Assembly (NCBI RefSeq): GCF_011764585.1
Contig: NZ_AP022853.1
Location: 1,099,501-1,163,500, forward strand
DNA: 64,000 bases
Reading direction: 5' to 3'
Source of the DNA: Sulfurimicrobium lacus
GTDB taxonomy: Bacteria > Pseudomonadota > Gammaproteobacteria > Burkholderiales > Sulfuricellaceae
The notes below the pieces were generated by a model. That model did no database searches and was not told the origin of the DNA. It saw nothing but the letters and a program-made list of their open reading frames with translations. Positions within the stretch are counted from its first letter, which is position 1; every line of letters starts with the position of its first letter. The position numbers and the translations under genes are program-made. Of this stretch, positions 29,716 through 38,304 are shown piece by piece.

Positions 29716-31509
29716 TCAGTGCTGCAACTGCCCGTACAACCTGCTGTACAGCCCGTTGCTCTTGAGCAATTCCTCGTGGGCGCCTTCTTCGATGATGCGC
29801 CCGTCCTCGAACACGTAAACCCGGTCGGCCTGTTTGACCGCCGAGAGGCGGTGCGCCACGATGATCGTGGTGCGGTCCTTGAGAAACGCCCCTAGCGCTT
29901 CGTGCAGCCGAGCCTCGGTTTCCGCGTCCAGGGCGGAAGTGGCTTCGTCGAGTATCACCACCTGCGGCTTGGCCAGGATCATGCGCGCGATGGCGAGGCG
30001 CTGGCGCTGGCCGCCGGAGATGCGCACGCCCTGCAGGCCGACGACGGTGTCAAGTCCCTTGGGCAGCTGTTCCACCAGGTCTTTGAGTTGCGCCACCTCC
30101 AGCGCCTGCCACAGGTCCGCGTCGTTGCAGTCGCAGCCCATGGTGAGGTTGGCGCGCACCGTGTCGTTGAAAATGGCGGGGTGCTGCAGGACGGTCGCCA
30201 CGTGCTGGCGCACCACTTCCATGCCGATCTGCGTGACCGGGACGTTGTCGAAATAAAGCGTGCCGGACTCGGTGGGGTAGAGTCCGAGGATGACCTGCAC
30301 CAGCGTGGATTTTCCCCCGCCAGACGCCCCCACCAGGGCGATCTTTTCCCCGGCCTTGATGTCGAGGTCGACGCCGTTGAGCACCAGCGGGCCGTCGCCG
30401 TAGCGGAACGAGATGTTTTCCATGCGCACGCCGACGGTGTGCTTGCCGCTGAAGGGGTCGCGCAGGGCGGGGTAGTGCGGCTCCTCGTCCAGTTGCATGA
30501 GGCGGTTGAGGCGTCCCAGCGCGGCCTTGGCGCTGAAATAGGCGTACTGGATGCCGAGGATTTCCTGCACCGGCGCCATCATGAACCACAGGTAGCCGAA
30601 CACCGCCATCATCTCGCCCACCGTGAGGTTGGAGAACACCACCATCAGCATGCTGATGGCGCGGAACACGTCGAAGCCGATGAGGAAGACCATGAACGAC
30701 AGGCGGCTGGCGGCGTCGCTTTTCCACGAGAACGCGGCGGCGTGGGTGCGGATGCCGCGCGCCCGTTCCAGCACGCGGCTGATGTAATGCTCCTCGCGGT
30801 TGGCGGCGCGGATCTGCTGGATGGCGTCGAGGGTTTCGGTGAGCGCCTGCTGGAACAGCTCGAAGGCGCTGTTTTCCTTCTTCTTGAGGGTTTTGACTTT
30901 CTTGCCCAGCACCGTGGTGAAGTAGATCACCACCGGGTTCATGAGCAGGATGAACAGCGCCAGCTGCCAGTGCATCCACAGCAGGATGGCGGCGGTGCCG
31001 ATGATGGAGAGCAGGGCGACGAGGAACTTGCTGATGGTGGCGCCGATGAAGTCGTCCACGGCGTTGAGGTCGGTGACGAAATGGGAGGCCACCGCGCCGC
31101 TGCCCAGGGTTTCGTATTCCGACATGGCGATACGCTTGAGGCGCTGCAGCAGGCCTTCGCGCAGGCGGTAGGAGACATCCTTGGCGATGAGGGTGAAATT
31201 GCGCGTCTGCCACACTCCCATCATCGCGGCGAACAGGCGCAGCACTATCGTGAGGGCGAGGATGGCGCTGATATACAGCAGCGGGCTGTGCCAGTGAGTG
31301 GGAAAGCGGCTATCGATCCAGCCGACCATGACGCCGGGCTTGTGCAGCAGCACTTCGTCCACCAGCAAGGGCATGAGGAGCGGAATGGGGACGCTCGCCA
31401 GTGCCGCGAAAACGGCGATGACGTGGGCGGCGATTAGTTCTTTCTTGTGCTCCCTGGCGATGCCCAGGATGTAGGGCCAGGTGTAGACCGGGGGTAACGG
31501 ATTCGGCAT
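29716..31509 (-). CDS. ABC exporter half-transporter (permease and ATPase fused)
   Basis: 597 residues: a type IV exporter membrane domain with six helices (about 25-320) and a C-terminal nucleotide-binding domain. It has Walker A GASGGGKST, the Q-loop, signature ISGGQRQR, Walker B VVILDEATSALD and the switch histidine in IIVAHRLS. The layout is that of MsbA-like lipid or drug exporters, but nothing identifies the substrate. It follows the response regulator gene by 18 bases on the same strand and may be in that operon. Confidence 0.9.
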   Translation of the reverse strand: MPNPLPPVYTWPYILGIAREHKKELIAAHVIAVFAALASVPIPLLMPLLVDEVLLHKPGVMVGWIDSRFPTHWHSPLLYISAILALTIVLRLFAAMMGVWQTRNFTLIAKDVSYRLREGLLQRLKRIAMSEYETLGSGAVASHFVTDLNAVDDFIGATISKFLVALLSIIGTAAILLWMHWQLALFILLMNPVVIYFTTVLGKKVKTLKKKENSAFELFQQALTETLDAIQQIRAANREEHYISRVLERARGIRTHAAAFSWKSDAASRLSFMVFLIGFDVFRAISMLMVVFSNLTVGEMMAVFGYLWFMMAPVQEILGIQYAYFSAKAALGRLNRLMQLDEEPHYPALRDPFSGKHTVGVRMENISFRYGDGPLVLNGVDLDIKAGEKIALVGASGGGKSTLVQVILGLYPTESGTLYFDNVPVTQIGMEVVRQHVATVLQHPAIFNDTVRANLTMGCDCNDADLWQALEVAQLKDLVEQLPKGLDTVVGLQGVRISGGQRQRLAIARMILAKPQVVILDEATSALDAETEARLHEALGAFLKDRTTIIVAHRLSAVKQADRVYVFEDGRIIEEGAHEELLKSNGLYSRLYGQLQH

Positions 31510-31527: not shown

Positions 31528-32553
31528 TCAGCCCCAGAATTTGAAGCTGCTTCTTTCCAGCACGCGGATGCAGCTGTCCACCACATCCTGGTCGTAAAGC
31601 TTGCTCCGATTTTTCTGGATTTCGTCCATGGCGGCTTCAATCCCCAGCGATGGGCGGTACGGCCGGAAAGAGGTCATCGCTTCGACCACATCGGCCACTG
31701 CGATGATGCGCGCTTCCATGCATATCTCCTCGCCCTTGAGGCCCTTCGGGTAACCCGATCCGTCCATGCGCTCGTGGTGTTCCACCACCATGCGTGCCAC
31801 GGGCCAGGGGAAGGATGCGCCGGCCAGGATGTCGTAGCCGGCCTGGAGGTGGGTCTTGATGATGTCCATCTCGATGGTGGACAGCTTTCTCGGGCAGCTC
31901 AGGATCTCGGCGGGGACGCGGATCTTGCCCACGTCGTGAACCAGGCTGCCGAGACGGATGCCGGTGATGGTGTCGGAGGGCATGCCCATATCCTCTGCGA
32001 TGGCCGTCGCCAGCAGGGAAACCCGCTTCTGGTGGCCGTCGGTGTAGGGGTCGCGCAGCTCGATGGCCCGCGAAAGCACGCCTATGGTCTGTTCCAGTGA
32101 GTCGATGATGAGCTTTTCAGCCTTGTCCATCTCCCGTTTGTGGAAGCGGTTCTTGGCGCTCTTGAATATGGCCTGGAGCAGGGTGTCGGTGTTGACCGGC
32201 TTGGTGACGTACTGGTCCACCCCGATTTCGATGGCCCGGATGAAGTAGTCGCGCTCGCTGTAGGCCGTGATCACGATGATGGGGACTTCATGGACCGACG
32301 CTTTGATGATCGAAGCCATTTCCAGGCCGTCCATTACCGGCATTTTGATGTCGGTCACCACCACGTCAGGCTGGTGTTCGCGAAAGGCCTGAATGCCTTC
32401 CTGGCCATTAATGGCAGTATGTAGCGCGCCGACCCGGCGGCGCAGGAAACGGGTCAGAAGATCCCGAATTTCATCGTCGTCTTCGACATATAGAATGGAC
32501 AGCGTCTTCAGGAAGTCGAAGTCGACCTGGGCTGTGGTGTTGTCGGGTTTCAT
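31528..32553 (-). CDS. Response regulator with HD-GYP c-di-GMP phosphodiesterase domain
   Basis: 341 residues. The receiver domain (about 17-135) has the acidic pair in YVEDDD, the phospho-acceptor D68 in VVVTDIKMP and K118 in TKP. The HD-GYP domain follows (about 155-340) with HDVGK (206-210) and HHERMDGSGYP (259-269), both intact, so c-di-GMP hydrolysis is expected. The partner kinase lies directly upstream. Similar over its full length to the protein at 50532-51560. Confidence 0.93.
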   Translation of the reverse strand: MKPDNTTAQVDFDFLKTLSILYVEDDDEIRDLLTRFLRRRVGALHTAINGQEGIQAFREHQPDVVVTDIKMPVMDGLEMASIIKASVHEVPIIVITAYSERDYFIRAIEIGVDQYVTKPVNTDTLLQAIFKSAKNRFHKREMDKAEKLIIDSLEQTIGVLSRAIELRDPYTDGHQKRVSLLATAIAEDMGMPSDTITGIRLGSLVHDVGKIRVPAEILSCPRKLSTIEMDIIKTHLQAGYDILAGASFPWPVARMVVEHHERMDGSGYPKGLKGEEICMEARIIAVADVVEAMTSFRPYRPSLGIEAAMDEIQKNRSKLYDQDVVDSCIRVLERSSFKFWG

Positions 32554-32568
32554 AAAAATGGCTTAATT

Positions 32569-34044
32569 TTAAGAGGCTTTTTCCAATGGTATGCTCAACG
32601 TAAACCGGGCGCCGTTTTCAATGTTGGCCGCGCCGATTTTACCTTCCATGTTACGCTCAATTATCATTTTGACCATGTATAGCCCGATTCCGCTTCCTTG
32701 ATCCTTGGTGGTGAAATAAGGGTCGAACAGCCGCGGCAAGATATCCTGCGCGATGCCGCCGCCGTTGTCATCCACGGTAAGAACGGCTTCCTTTCCCTCT
32801 TTTCTGAGCGCGACGCGGATTTGTCCGTTGGCGGTCTCGCTCTCCAGGATCGCTTCCTTGGCGTTAACCAGCAGATTGAGCACGGCCTGTGCATACTGGC
32901 TGGGGAAACCGGTTGCGGTCAAATCAGGGGGTACATCCACGGCGATTTCGATGCTGTTGTTCTTGAGCGCGGCCATGACGATGAAAACCGCTTCCCTGAC
33001 GGCCTCTGCTACGTCGAAACTGGATTTCTCGCGGTCGGGGCGGAAGAAGTCGCGGAAATCGTCGATCGTGGTGGACATTTTTTCGATCAGGCGCCTGGCG
33101 TCGGAAACGTCGCGCGCCAGGGTTTCCTCCGTGATGGCCTTGAACTTGAAATCGTCCTGTATGTTGCTGATGATCAGGCCCAGGGAATTGAGCGGTTGCC
33201 GCCACTGGTGTGCGATGTTGTGCACCATCTCGCCCATGGCGGCCAGGCGCGACTGCTGGATGAGCATGTGATCCTTTTCGCGGTTTGCCGCGACTTCATC
33301 GCTGACGCGTTGTTCCAGGGTTTCATTCAACTGTCTGAGCGCTTCCTCGGCATCCTTGCGTTCGGCAATTTCATGCAGCAGGCTCGAATTGTAGTTTTGC
33401 AGTTCGTTGCGCATGGATGCAAAACTGCTAACCAGTTTGCCGACTTCATCCGGCCCAGCCTTGGGCAACGGCGTGTCGAAATCCATCCTGGCGAGCCGGA
33501 CGGATGCTTTGGCCAATTGGCGCAACGGCCTTCCCACTGTGATTTCCGTGGTGGCGATGATCGTTACCATGAGAGCGGCCATCACGCCGAGCAGAGTCAG
33601 GGACAATTCCCTGATCTCCTGGCGTGTGTTTGCCAGCGATGGCGCCAGATCCACTCTTGCCACCAGGGTGCCCAGGTCGGTGTCGAGATAACGAATTTTC
33701 TTTTCCAGCGTGCGTACGCCCGGTGAGGTTAATTGGCCAGATTGTTTTGCTGAGGAGGCCAGCGGGTAGAGCTGCTTGCCTTCGGCATTGACCAGTCTGA
33801 TGTCGACCCACGCCGGATTCTTTGCCTTCAATGCGTTGAGATTTTCGTGCACGATGTCCAGCTGGCTTCCCAGTAGGAGCGGAATCATGGCCTCCACCAC
33901 ACTGTCCAGATGCTGATCCACAGCCCTGAAATGCGCGGCCTCGTCGTTGGCAAGCGTCCTGGGAACCCAGATGGCGTAGAGGTAAATCCCGATCAGCAGC
34001 CCGATCAGCAGCAGTGGATACAGGAGTTTTGCACGCAGGGACAC
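32569..34044 (-). CDS. Membrane sensor histidine kinase
   Basis: 491 residues from GTG 34044. Two membrane helices (about 9-26 and 148-168) flank a periplasmic sensor of about 120 residues; then HAMP (170-225), a coiled coil, the phospho-acceptor H279 in NIAHQWRQPLN and an ATPase domain (DNGGGIAQDILPRLFDPYFTTK, GSGIGLYMVKMI). The binding site for this start (AGAGG, complement of 34052-34056) lies inside the terminal repeat of the element at 34047-34317; the open frame runs on into that element but the extra residues are repeat-derived. Partner regulator downstream. Confidence 0.9.
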   Translation of the reverse strand: MSLRAKLLYPLLLIGLLIGIYLYAIWVPRTLANDEAAHFRAVDQHLDSVVEAMIPLLLGSQLDIVHENLNALKAKNPAWVDIRLVNAEGKQLYPLASSAKQSGQLTSPGVRTLEKKIRYLDTDLGTLVARVDLAPSLANTRQEIRELSLTLLGVMAALMVTIIATTEITVGRPLRQLAKASVRLARMDFDTPLPKAGPDEVGKLVSSFASMRNELQNYNSSLLHEIAERKDAEEALRQLNETLEQRVSDEVAANREKDHMLIQQSRLAAMGEMVHNIAHQWRQPLNSLGLIISNIQDDFKFKAITEETLARDVSDARRLIEKMSTTIDDFRDFFRPDREKSSFDVAEAVREAVFIVMAALKNNSIEIAVDVPPDLTATGFPSQYAQAVLNLLVNAKEAILESETANGQIRVALRKEGKEAVLTVDDNGGGIAQDILPRLFDPYFTTKDQGSGIGLYMVKMIIERNMEGKIGAANIENGARFTLSIPLEKAS

Positions 34045-34046
34045 TG

Positions 34047-34317
34047 AGGAACCTCTGATTAAGTCAAATGCGGTCGCGACGTGGTTTTGCGGGTGCCAGG
34101 CAAGAAGTGAGGCGCGCCGTGCAGTCATTCTGCACCAGCGCCTCGCGACGCCGCATGGCGCCCGCAAAACCACGTCCCTCCGGGTTACATCGAAAACGGG
34201 CTTGCGCCGCGTTGCGCTCCTCGGCGTCGTAGGCTCGGCTACGACCTTCGTCGCGCGCCTTGCTCAAGCCCGTTTTCGATGTAACGCGATCCGCGTTTGA
34301 CTTAATCAGAGGTTCCT
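34047..34317. repeat. 271-bp palindromic element with terminal inverted repeats (MITE-like)
   Basis: Ends match as inverted repeats: AGGAACCTCTGATTAAGTCA... (34047-34078) and its complement (34285-34317), 32 bases with one mismatch and one gap. Inside are two long arms. Arm A pairs 34078-34098 with 34156-34176 (21 pairs, one wobble) and holds GAGGCGC/GCGCCTC and GTGCAG/CTGCAC. Arm B pairs 34184-34204 with 34265-34285 (21 perfect pairs) and holds GTCGTAG/CTACGAC. No open frame of its own. The structure is that of a non-autonomous mobile element or large palindromic repeat; no flanking duplication was clearly seen. Confidence 0.85.
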
Positions 34318-34404
34318 TAGCCGGAAAAAACGCGAGAATACCACAGGGCGCCCATGCCGGGCTTTGTGCCATAATTCCGCCATCTTGATGAGTCGGGCAA
34401 GGCC

Positions 34405-35220
34405 ATGGATTGGAAAGCAGTCGGTACGTTTCAGGACATTCTCTATCACCGGGCGGAGGGCATCGCCCGCATCACGATCAACCGCCCCGAGGTGCGCAAC
34501 GCCTTCCGGCCGCAGACCGTGAACGAACTGATGCAGGCCTTCCAGCAGGCCCATCTCGACCCGGAAATCGGCGTCGTCATCCTCACCGGCGCGGGCGACA
34601 AGGCGTTCTGCTCCGGCGGCGACCAGAAAGTACGCGGCGACGACGGCGGCTACCACGACGCGCAGGGTACGCCGCACCTCAACGTGCTCGACCTGCAGAT
34701 GCAGATCCGCCGCCTGCCCAAGCCGGTGGTGGCGATGGTGGCGGGCTACGCCATCGGCGGCGGGCACGTGCTGCACCTGGTGTGCGACCTGACCATCGCC
34801 GCGGACAACGCCCGCTTCGGCCAGACCGGGCCGCGCGTCGGCAGCTTCGACGCGGGCCTCGGCGCCGGGCTGCTGGCGCGCGCCGTCGGTCTGAAAAAAG
34901 CCAAGGAAATCTGGTTCCTGTGCCGCCAGTACGACGCGCAGGAAGCGCTGAGCATGGGGCTGGTCAATACCGTGGTGCCGCTGGCGCAACTGGAACAGGA
35001 AACGCTGCAGTGGTGCCACGAAATGCTGCAGCACTCGCCCACCGCGCTGCGCGTGCTCAAGGCCGCCTTCAACGCCGACACCGACGGCCTGGCGGGGATA
35101 CAGGAACTGGCGGGCAACGCCACCGCGCTCTACTACATGACTCCAGAAGGCCAGGAAGGACGCAATGCCTGGCTGGAAAAACGCGCGCCGGATTTCGGCA
35201 AGTTTCCGCGTCGTCCGTGA
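34405..35220 (+). CDS. menB: 1,4-dihydroxy-2-naphthoyl-CoA synthase MenB
   Basis: Closes the naphthoquinone ring from o-succinylbenzoyl-CoA in menaquinone synthesis. 271 residues of the crotonase fold. Family-specific motifs are [42 protein letters not shown] and the C-terminal [21 protein letters not shown], which separate MenB from other enoyl-CoA hydratases. First men gene on this strand; menA follows only after a four-kilobase accessory block. Confidence 0.97.
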
Positions 35221-35475: not shown

Positions 35476-38304
35476 ATGCCCCTAAGCTGGAACGAAATCA
35501 AAAGCCGCGCACTGGGTTTTTCCCGGGAATGGCAAAACGAATCCTCCGAAGATGCCGAAGCCAAATCCTTCTGGGACGGATTTTTCAACATCTTCGGCAT
35601 CAGCCGCAAGCGTATCGCCTCATTTGAAGAGCCGGTAAAAAAGCTGGGCGACAAGCAGGGGTTCATCGACCTGTTCTGGAAGGGCGTATTGCTGGTCGAA
35701 CACAAATCGCGCGGCAAAAACCTCGACAAAGCCTATACCCAGGCGCTGGACTACTTCCCCGGAATTTCGGAACGTGACTTGCCCAAATACGTCTTGGTCT
35801 CCGACTTCGCCCGCTTTCGCCTCTACGATCTGGAAACCAACGAACAGCACGAATTCGAGCTGCATGACCTGCACAAAAACGTGTCGCTGTTCGGTTTTAT
35901 CGCCGGGTATCAAACCCACAAGATACAAGAGCAGGACCCGGTCAACATCAAGGCTGCCGAACGCATGGGCAGGCTGCACGACCAGATGCGGGAAACCGGC
36001 TTTGAAGGCCACCCGCTGGAGCTATATCTGGTGCGCCTGCTGTTCTGCCTGTTTGCCGAAGATACCGGCATCTTCGAGCGCCAGCAGTTTCAGGACTACA
36101 TCGAACAGCGCACCTGCGGCGACGGTACCGACCTTGCTTACCACATCAGCGCCCTGTTTCAGGTTCTCAACACCCCGGAACAAAAACGTCTGAAAAATCT
36201 TGACCAACAGCTCGCCGCCTTTCCCTACGTTAACGGCAAGCTGTTTGAAGAAGCGCTGCCCATGGCCGGCTTCGACGGAGCCATGCGCCAATCTCTGCTC
36301 GACTGCTGCGCGCTGGACTGGAGCCGTATCTCCCCCGCCATTTTTGGCAGCCTGTTTCAGTCCATCATGGACAAACAGGCACGCCGCAACCTTGGTGCGC
36401 ATTACACCAGCGAAAAGAACATCCTCAAACTCATCAAGCCCTTGTTTCTCGATGCCCTGTGGGCCGAATTCAACAAAGTCAAAAGCAACAAAAACCGGCT
36501 GTTCGAATTCCACAAAAAACTGCGCAGCCTGAATTTTTTCGACCCCGCCTGCGGCTGCGGCAACTTCCTCGTCATCGCCTACCGCGAACTGCGCCTGCTG
36601 GAGCTCGAAGTCCTGCGCGCCTCGCGTTCCAGCGAACAGCTTACGCTGGACGTGCACAGCCTCATCAACCTGGACGTGGACCAGTTCTACGGCATCGAAA
36701 TCGAAGAATTTCCCGCCCAGATCGCCCAGGTCGCAATGTGGCTGATGGATCACCAGATGAACCTGCTGGTGTCGGAAGAATTCGGCATGTACTTCGCTCG
36801 TATTCCTCTCAAAGCCAGCGCCAATATCGTGTGCGGCAATGCCTTGCTGCTGGACTGGAACGAGGTGGTCGTTGCAGAGAAATGCAGTTTTATGATGGGG
36901 AATCCGCCGTTTGTTGGGAAACACTATCAGGACAAACAGCAGAAGATGGAACTGGTGGCTGTTTTTGCTGGCTTGAAGGCAGCCTCCGACCTCGATTTTG
37001 TCGCCGCATGGTATCGCAAGGCAGCCGATTACATGGTCGCGAATCGGTCAATCCGGGCCGCTCTGGTTTCCACCAACAGCATTACCCAGGGCGAACAGGT
37101 TGGCATTCTCTGGCCCGATCTCTATCGACGTGGTGTCAAAATCCATTTCGCGCATCGCACCTTCCAATGGAATAACGAGGCACGCGGCAAGGCTGCGGTG
37201 CACTGCGTCATCATCGGTTTCGCGCTGCACGATACCGGCGAGAAATGGTTGTTCGAATATGAAGCCTTGCGCGGCGAACCTCACGCCGTCAAGGTTCCCA
37301 ATATCAGCCCCTATCTCGTCAGCGGGCCGGATATCATTGCAGGGAAGCGACAGCAACCCCTTGGCGCTGTGCCGGACATGCGGTGCGGCAACAAACCGAG
37401 CGATGGTGGTAATTTGCTGCTTTCCGACGCGGAGCGGGACGCACTGCTTGCCGACGAACCGGCTGCCGCGCCCTGGGTGAGGCGCTTTGTCGGCTCCGAG
37501 GAGTTCATCAATAACATCCCTCGCTGGTGCCTCTGGCTTGATGGCATTCCACCCGAAACACTGCGCAAATTGCCCAAGGTGCTGGCCCGAGTAGAGGCGG
37601 TGCGGGCGTTCCGCTCCGCCAGCAGCGCGGAACCGACACGCCGCGCAGCGGAAATGCCCACCCGATTTTTCTACGTCTCGCAGCCGGACAAACCCTATAT
37701 TCTGATCCCGGAAGTCTCATCCGAGCGTCGCCGCTATGTGCCCATCGGCTTCATGACCCCGGACGTGATTTCGAGCAACACCAATTATCTGATAGCCGAG
37801 CCCAGCCTGTATCTGTTTGGCGTGTTGCAATCAGCCATGCATATGGCCTGGCTGGGAACCGTTGGCGGGCATCTCAAGAGCGATTTTCGATACTCCGGCT
37901 CGATGGTTTACAACACCTTCCCCTGGCCGGATCTTCCCTCTCCCCCTGCCCCTCTCCCGCCAGCGGGCGAGGGGAGTAAAAGCCCCTCCCCCGTAGGCGG
38001 GGGAGGGGTTGGGGAGAGGGGGCGCATCGAAACCGCAGCCCAGGCCGTTCTCGATGCCCGCGCCCAATTCCCGGACGCCTCCCTGGCCGATCTCTACGAC
38101 CCGCTCACCATGCCGCCCGCGCTGCTCAAGGCGCATCAGGCGCTGGATAAAGCCGTGGATGCCGCCTACGGCAAAACCGGCTTTAAATCCGAAGCCGAAC
38201 GCGTGGCGTTTTTGTTCGAGCGCTATCAGAAAATCACTTCCCTGCTCCCGTCAGCGTCCAGCGAAAAAACCAGAAAGACGCGCCGGAAGGGAGAAAACGC
38301 ATGA
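35476..38304 (+). CDS. MmeI-like type IIG/IIL restriction enzyme with N6-adenine methyltransferase
   Basis: 942 residues holding both activities in one chain. The N-terminal nuclease has D65, E75 and K77 spaced as D-X9-E-X-K, the pattern of MmeI. A helical spacer with GAHYTS (307-312) leads to the methyltransferase: motif I DPACGCGN (356-363) and motif IV NPPF (476-479), typical of N6-adenine enzymes. The C-terminal part is the target-recognition region. Residues 821-849 are encoded by a palindromic DNA repeat that interrupts the conserved join between FPWPDL and IETAAQAVLDAR without breaking the frame. Overlaps the next gene by four bases. Confidence 0.9.
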   Translation: MPLSWNEIKSRALGFSREWQNESSEDAEAKSFWDGFFNIFGISRKRIASFEEPVKKLGDKQGFIDLFWKGVLLVEHKSRGKNLDKAYTQALDYFPGISERDLPKYVLVSDFARFRLYDLETNEQHEFELHDLHKNVSLFGFIAGYQTHKIQEQDPVNIKAAERMGRLHDQMRETGFEGHPLELYLVRLLFCLFAEDTGIFERQQFQDYIEQRTCGDGTDLAYHISALFQVLNTPEQKRLKNLDQQLAAFPYVNGKLFEEALPMAGFDGAMRQSLLDCCALDWSRISPAIFGSLFQSIMDKQARRNLGAHYTSEKNILKLIKPLFLDALWAEFNKVKSNKNRLFEFHKKLRSLNFFDPACGCGNFLVIAYRELRLLELEVLRASRSSEQLTLDVHSLINLDVDQFYGIEIEEFPAQIAQVAMWLMDHQMNLLVSEEFGMYFARIPLKASANIVCGNALLLDWNEVVVAEKCSFMMGNPPFVGKHYQDKQQKMELVAVFAGLKAASDLDFVAAWYRKAADYMVANRSIRAALVSTNSITQGEQVGILWPDLYRRGVKIHFAHRTFQWNNEARGKAAVHCVIIGFALHDTGEKWLFEYEALRGEPHAVKVPNISPYLVSGPDIIAGKRQQPLGAVPDMRCGNKPSDGGNLLLSDAERDALLADEPAAAPWVRRFVGSEEFINNIPRWCLWLDGIPPETLRKLPKVLARVEAVRAFRSASSAEPTRRAAEMPTRFFYVSQPDKPYILIPEVSSERRRYVPIGFMTPDVISSNTNYLIAEPSLYLFGVLQSAMHMAWLGTVGGHLKSDFRYSGSMVYNTFPWPDLPSPPAPLPPAGEGSKSPSPVGGGGVGERGRIETAAQAVLDARAQFPDASLADLYDPLTMPPALLKAHQALDKAVDAAYGKTGFKSEAERVAFLFERYQKITSLLPSASSEKTRKTRRKGENA
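37936..38020. repeat. Palindromic repeat inside the restriction-methyltransferase gene
   Basis: CCCTCTCCCC (37936-37945) and GGGGAGAGGG (38011-38020) are perfect inverted ends. Between them are two hairpins: CTCTCCCGCC/GGGCGAGGGGAG around 37952-37976 and CCCCTCCCCCG/CGGGGGAGGGG around 37983-38008. The layout is that of common C/G-rich intergenic palindromic repeats of proteobacteria. Here it is translated as a Pro/Ser/Gly-rich loop of about 29 residues. Confidence 0.85.

Follow-up and report, generated by a model that had tools for sequence, protein, structure and literature searches.

In the 64,000-nucleotide stretch of Sulfurimicrobium lacus DNA analysed here (contig NZ_AP022853.1, positions 1,099,501 to 1,163,500; hereafter the window), a nearly perfect nested palindrome of 269 bp with the body GGAACC...GGTTCC occupies positions 34048-34316, the order in the window being kinase, element, enoyl-CoA hydratase (ECH). 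The genome holding the window is referred to as G000 and that of a sister species as G003. The features of the locus, in window coordinates, are as follows.

29716-31509, minus strand: ABC transporter
31528-32553, minus strand: response regulator with HD domain (labelled HD-GYP in the initial annotation)
32569-34044, minus strand: sensor histidine kinase (HAMP, HisKA, HATPase_c)
34044-34047, plus strand: left flank CTGA, kinase side
34048-34316, plus strand (canonical orientation): predicted MITE copy, 269 bp
34048-34077, plus strand: left terminal inverted repeat, GGAACCTCTGATTAAGTCAAATGCGGTCGC
34052-34056, minus strand (read 34056-34052): SD-like AGAGG within the terminal repeat; spacing to the kinase GTG, 7 nt
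34078-34176, plus strand: arm A, 23-pair stem and inner hairpin
34176-34184, plus strand: CCC-TCC-GGG mini-hairpin linker between the arms, both scored pairs kept in 17/17 aligned copies
34184-34285, plus strand: arm B, 21-pair stem and inner hairpins
34200-34268, minus strand: hairpin module in arm B, covariance model R1 (G000:C1:1133700-1133768:-, E 3.4e-16; this hairpin is one of the 15 modules used to build the model)
34286-34316, plus strand: right terminal inverted repeat
34317-34320, plus strand: right flank TTAG, ECH side
34405-35220, plus strand: ECH; in three relatives it stands divergently beside the 'MTVSNKS' gene

Elsewhere in the window, a 942-aa ORF (35476-38304) carries an in-frame proline/glycine-rich stretch (SPPAPLPPAGEG...SPSPVGGGG, at 37980-38080) that looks like an inserted repeat; no inverted repeat of at least 12 nt, as expected of a palindromic insert, was found in 37900-38200.

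The 271-bp element placed at 34047-34317 by the initial annotation is real, those bounds adding one flanking base on each side of the body. Its description as inverted ends enclosing two hairpin arms was upheld by a repeat finder, which returned ends of 30 nt with 93% complementarity (34044-34073/34291-34320, four flanking bases per side counted in) and inner inverted repeats of 24 nt (92%) and 27 nt (93%). As RNA, the element together with a few bases of flank folds at -184.7 kcal/mol, and none of 200 shuffles was as low (z -14.0). Pairing was assessed in an alignment of 17 full copies, comprising 13 of the 14 in G000 (L014, in which arm A is inverted, was omitted) and the four of G003. The consensus consists of a terminal helix of 29 pairs, arm A with 23 pairs and an inner hairpin, and arm B with 21 pairs and inner hairpins, the two arms being separated by a CC/GG mini-hairpin of 2 pairs. 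Paired cells make up 98.0% of this alignment, compared with 31-42% when the partner is slid, and double-sided changes are seen at 29 of 105 pairs versus 10.4 in shuffles; the paired arms are, by all appearances, kept through compensatory change. It should be noted that template-switch repair in long palindromes can produce compensatory changes without selection. Since such repair mimics covariation and the alignment was itself the source of the structure, these data indicate that pairing is kept and do not give the reason for its keeping. Rfam models gave no match up to E 1 across 33500-34900, and in six related loci miRNA models alone matched, far below their cut-offs.

A search of the same genome for further copies, proposed in the initial annotation, found 14 full copies in G000 (268-326 bp, with 30-bp ends), together with four end-only minis and one 36-bp remnant. 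The end pattern, allowing up to three mismatches, was found at 36 ends in G000 versus 0 with the reversed control. The element has no conserved gene of its own and no transposase, and it is short, multicopy and bounded by terminal inverted repeats, as is expected of a MITE. Within the genus, four of eight genomes (G000 included) have matches, with full copies in G003, a long match in G005 and a partial one in G002; within the family, 7 of 22 genomes match, and the three matches beyond the genus cover the arm-B loop only.

Several copies depart from the standard form. L012 and L014 were found in two pieces owing to an extra stretch of about 57 bp in arm B, which is also present in L013. This stretch is GC-rich and occurs at the identical arm-B point in L012, L013, L014 and L036 (four copies, two species); that of L012, the one folded, folds better than 200 of 200 shuffles. 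Arm A of L014 (L014:1502-1823; G000:C1:1743919-1744240) is inverted relative to the focal copy, matching the focal arm at 98 of 99 bases in reverse and 58 of 99 directly, the only such case among the 18 copies compared, which suggests flipping through recombination between stem repeats. End-only minis of about 51-56 bp, without both arms, lie at G000:C1:161034, 1797674, 2095395 and 2152587, as well as at L104 (G003) and L105 (G002). The natural minis of 51-54 bp hint that armless elements may be movable by an IS5-family transposase; they may also be products of deletion.

The flanks of the elements are YTAR-like, as for a YTA(R)-type target. Flank agreement was scored in 20 elements, namely the 14 full copies of G000, the four of G003 and two of the four minis, the other two minis having ambiguous or mutated edges. 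At least three of four bases agree in 12 of the 20, versus 6.4 with right flanks shuffled (p 0.003). Agreement is 4/4 in four elements (CTAG in L005; CTAA in L014, L036 and L068), 3/4 in eight (including L009, L010 and L035), 2/4 in four (L008, L012, L031 and L053) and 1/4 in four (L001, L003, L004 and L011). The target duplications for which the initial annotation had recommended a check are therefore found for the elements as a group, and individually at 4/4 in only 4 of 20. The G000 copies L003, L004, L008, L011 and L012, with agreement of 1/4 or 2/4, resemble the focal copy, and such copies with disagreeing flanks may mark further rearrangements.

A partner IS is present in G003, where the intact, 1170-bp L243 has 17/17 inverted ends (GGAACCCCTGAACAAGT), the target duplication TTAG/TTAG, and a transposase scoring 323.8 bits against NCBIfam NF033581 (IS5 family; cut-off 140). 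Two of the four full MITEs of G003, L034 and L036, are identical to the left end of L243 for 18/18 bases and then diverge at once; identity ending after base 18 of the 40 compared gives no sign of an origin by internal deletion of the IS. Matches in G000 are lacking: its two DDE_Tnp_1 proteins have no element-type ends, the transposase of another genome, G320, used as a query gave 0 matches at E<=1e-20, and an autonomous IS with these ends was considered and rejected, none being found. The matching transposase for which the initial annotation proposed a search exists as an intact IS5-family IS in the sister species, and G000 itself has none with such ends; as G000 is now without a partner IS, present mobility is unproven. 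Judged from these sequence matches, the element is a MITE whose ends are of the IS5 family and whose interior is foreign. Elsewhere, an intact 1171-bp IS5-family IS in G320 (L142:143-1313) has GGAACCTCTGATTAATTC at one end, and a decayed relative in G371 (L150) has TTAA on both sides. A 1236-bp end pair in G278 was rejected as an IS, being a short element plus a further end around a non-transposase ORF.

The element ends 3 bp before the kinase GTG (34044-34042, minus strand), and an SD-like AGAGG lies within its terminal repeat at the good spacing of 7 nt, both as first annotated. The accompanying claim that the element 'sets translation' of the kinase remains a hypothesis. AGAGG is fully paired in the full-length leader (unpaired probability 0.0 for all five bases) and still mostly paired in three leaders beginning inside the element (0.05-0.22). 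As to the control of transcription that the initial annotation held probable, a promoter scan of 33950-34450, a weak test limited to the sigma-70 type (shuffles average 0.2), returned no promoter-like site. The kinase start of G009 and G019 sits on the phnD 3' end, while in G000 AGAGG comes from the MITE end. We offer control of translation by the MITE end as a hypothesis, in which the kinase would be translated from this AGAGG only while the terminal stem is open, and the stem could be opened by RNase III-type cleavage or by a transcription start inside the element. NEMIS transcripts have been proposed as RNase III targets (PMC2229807).

A more general function, in which the element ends would carry a ribosome-binding site from place to place and so allow copies to persist beside start codons, draws on the positions of gene starts (ATG or GTG, ORF of at least 60; our own ORF calls). 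A start codon lies at 0-12 nt from 10 of 28 G000 ends, versus 2, 5 and 1 in the three bins of 13 nt that follow, although the sample is small and some of these ORFs may not be genes. Likewise, a called gene start lies within 15 bp of 8 of the 14 G000 copies versus 3 of the window's 48 intergenic YTAR sites, and the four copies of G003 have a start codon within 12 nt at 2 of 8 ends. For the same end in other lineages, however, only 6 of 63 ends have a start codon at 0-12 nt versus 4, 9 and 5 in the next bins (Fisher p 0.005 for 10/28 versus 6/63), leaving a portable-SD rule in those lineages unsupported. As the pattern is present in G000 and not in the other lineages, it is local, and the SD is paired in the full transcript. 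We regard a general function of this kind as rather unlikely.

How the kinase came to stand beside the element is addressed by the arrangement of these genes in relatives. The best kinase matches are in G019 (69%, over 405 aa before a contig end), G009 (65%) and G008 (55%), all outside the genus, and in each of them phnD directly precedes the kinase; the junction is free of the element in G009 and G019 by sequence, the kinase starting a few bases from the phnD stop, and in G008 by position. ECH is present in 17 further family genomes. In G004, G006 and G007, which belong to the genus, it is divergent from the 'MTVSNKS' gene with no element between; this adjacency is present in three of the six other genus genomes having an ECH match, and no MTVSNKS match was found beside ECH in the flank taken from the other 14 family genomes, some of these flanks being shortened by contig ends. 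The gene after MTVSNKS in G000, G004 and G006 is presumably SCO1-like. Element-free sites, by sequence or position, are thus found both at phnD-kinase (three relatives) and upstream of ECH (three relatives).

The missing neighbours lie together at a distant site of G000, where ppiA-phnD (3014.8-3016.2 kb) is followed by the 36-bp remnant and then by MTVSNKS and the SCO1-like gene. The focal copy and the remnant, 1.88 Mb apart, therefore stand at two junctions whose neighbours are swapped in relatives, with 1,882,435 bp between the junctions, or 49% of the chromosome. Undoing a 1.88-Mb inversion restores both phnD-kinase and ECH-'MTVSNKS', and the orientations fit one inversion. The flanks of the focal copy agree at 1/4 as they stand; with the inversion undone they become TTA/TTA at one site, where the TTA equals that beside the remnant, and CTGA/CTAA at the other, where CTGA on the kinase side agrees at 3/4 with CTAA on the phnD side (3016 kb, element orientation). 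We infer that the focal copy and the 3016-kb remnant are the breakpoints of this inversion. Homologous recombination between two inverted element copies would have inverted 49% of the chromosome and cut the kinase off both from its phnD partner and from a ribosome site in the phnD 3' end, and the position of the kinase downstream of the element, an aspect missed by the initial annotation, would be a consequence of it.

The junctions might instead have been swapped by independent events, in which the kinase block was acquired laterally or transposed and came by chance to lie at elements. The block may indeed be mobile, since none of the seven other genus genomes has a kinase ortholog at E<=1e-60. 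Nevertheless, the four junction flanks, like their orientations, are all compatible with one inversion, whose undoing restores two adjacencies of relatives and plausible target duplications, so that independent events appear improbable. If the inversion is accepted, the locus illustrates cleanly how two MITE copies explain a rearrangement of 1.88 Mb, through which a sensor kinase was parted from the binding protein that is its partner and a MITE end was left at the position of a ribosome site.

The arm hairpin itself has a much wider distribution. A plasmid search gave one weak match, a two-armed Comamonas element of 266 bp with other ends (GAACGTGTTTACGATCTC); a Pandoraea transposase with an IS5-family annotation and stops in its reading is preceded, 23 bp away, by a sequence that agrees with the Comamonas end in 20 of 22 positions. 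Plasmids of Cupriavidus and Mitsuaria carry the hairpin in elements with one arm, and distant genomes have it with GGAACCTCTGATTAATTC-like ends; a search for a phage origin of the element gave no match. With the R1 covariance model (built from 15 modules; up to 12 candidates per genome scored; E-values rough), 68 of 398 Pseudomonadota genomes have candidate matches at E<=1e-3. Applied to 44 loci, several of which are in the model, R1 gave 48 matches at E<=0.01 and none in two IS loci. Five loci (L191, L205, L207, L208 and L209) contain an inverted module pair about 105 bp apart. Of 29 module loci, all except L197, L199, L201 and L206 were read as having outer inverted repeats, mostly spanning 158-168 or 264-300 bp. 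The ends of module loci fall into about nine types, and among the non-GGAA types an IS5 link was found for the Comamonas one only. Among 369 genomes of the class, 62 carry the end GAACCTCTGATTAAGTC with at most one mismatch, the reversed control giving 2 matches. Separately, G232, G225 and G078, also of the class, contain 57-183 copies of the GAACCTCTGATTAAnTC end (at most one mismatch), those read being mostly in short elements.

The common view of bacterial MITEs is of IS ends around a dispensable interior. In the present case it is the interior hairpin that families share while the ends differ, making the purpose of the interior directly testable. The unit of selection may conceivably be the hairpin core (a conserved structured module with an AGGCG...CAACG internal loop, paired in inverted orientation in some elements) in place of the ends, captured repeatedly between unrelated IS-type ends across Pseudomonadota; we consider this a tentative proposal with somewhat less than an even chance of being right. 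If true, it would define a class of mobile elements with a fixed core and interchangeable ends, with the core either helping itself to transpose or working within host transcripts as a processed RNA. The occurrence of the arm hairpin between different kinds of ends could also be taken to mean that mobility depends on recognition of the hairpin, by single-strand transposition of the REP/IS200-like kind, and not on DDE transposition via the ends. Such a route is very unlikely given the long inverted ends, the flank duplications and the exact end match between an IS5-family DDE IS and MITE copies.

A regulatory leader native to the kinase, conserved with the gene and acting as an attenuator or in the manner of a riboswitch, would suit an element that folds strongly directly at a start codon. 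This idea has next to no probability: it is refuted by the number of copies, 14 full ones at other loci, and by the lack of any before the kinase orthologs of G008, G009 and G019, in which phnD and the kinase adjoin; nor is there an Rfam match up to E 1. The initial annotation's preference for a mobile repeat over a native region is thereby sustained. Taken as a whole, including the inversion and kinase-start steps, the sequence evidence makes it highly probable that the element is a MITE, non-autonomous and mobilised in trans by a transposase of the IS5 family.

Among known systems, BIME/REPIN elements are paired palindromes whose unit is an inverted pair of hairpins, as in this element. They differ in that the pair here is enclosed by a terminal inverted repeat and YTAR flanks, and in that the ends match a DDE IS. 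The element resembles the IS5 family (NCBIfam NF033581, transpos_IS5_4) in the 17-18 bp ends and YTAR target duplication of the G003 IS, but it has no transposase and its identity stops at base 18 of the first 40 compared. Topic and sequence-letter searches of the open-licence literature returned, among the matches listed, no paper recognised as describing the element. Correia/NEMIS of Neisseria are likewise small mobile units with terminal inverted repeats, stem-loop transcripts and reported inversion (PMC2229807, PMC10969869); as described there they measure about 107 and 155 bp, which sets them apart from a 269-bp two-armed element. ERIC/IRU and other bacterial MITEs share with it the properties of being non-coding, repeated and highly base-paired (PMC2229807), whereas the present element has two separate arms inside the terminal stem and a core hairpin that recurs between different ends. 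As a MITE it is of a known kind, in a variant that has two arms and whose core is widely shared, and it is located at the breakpoint of an inferred inversion.
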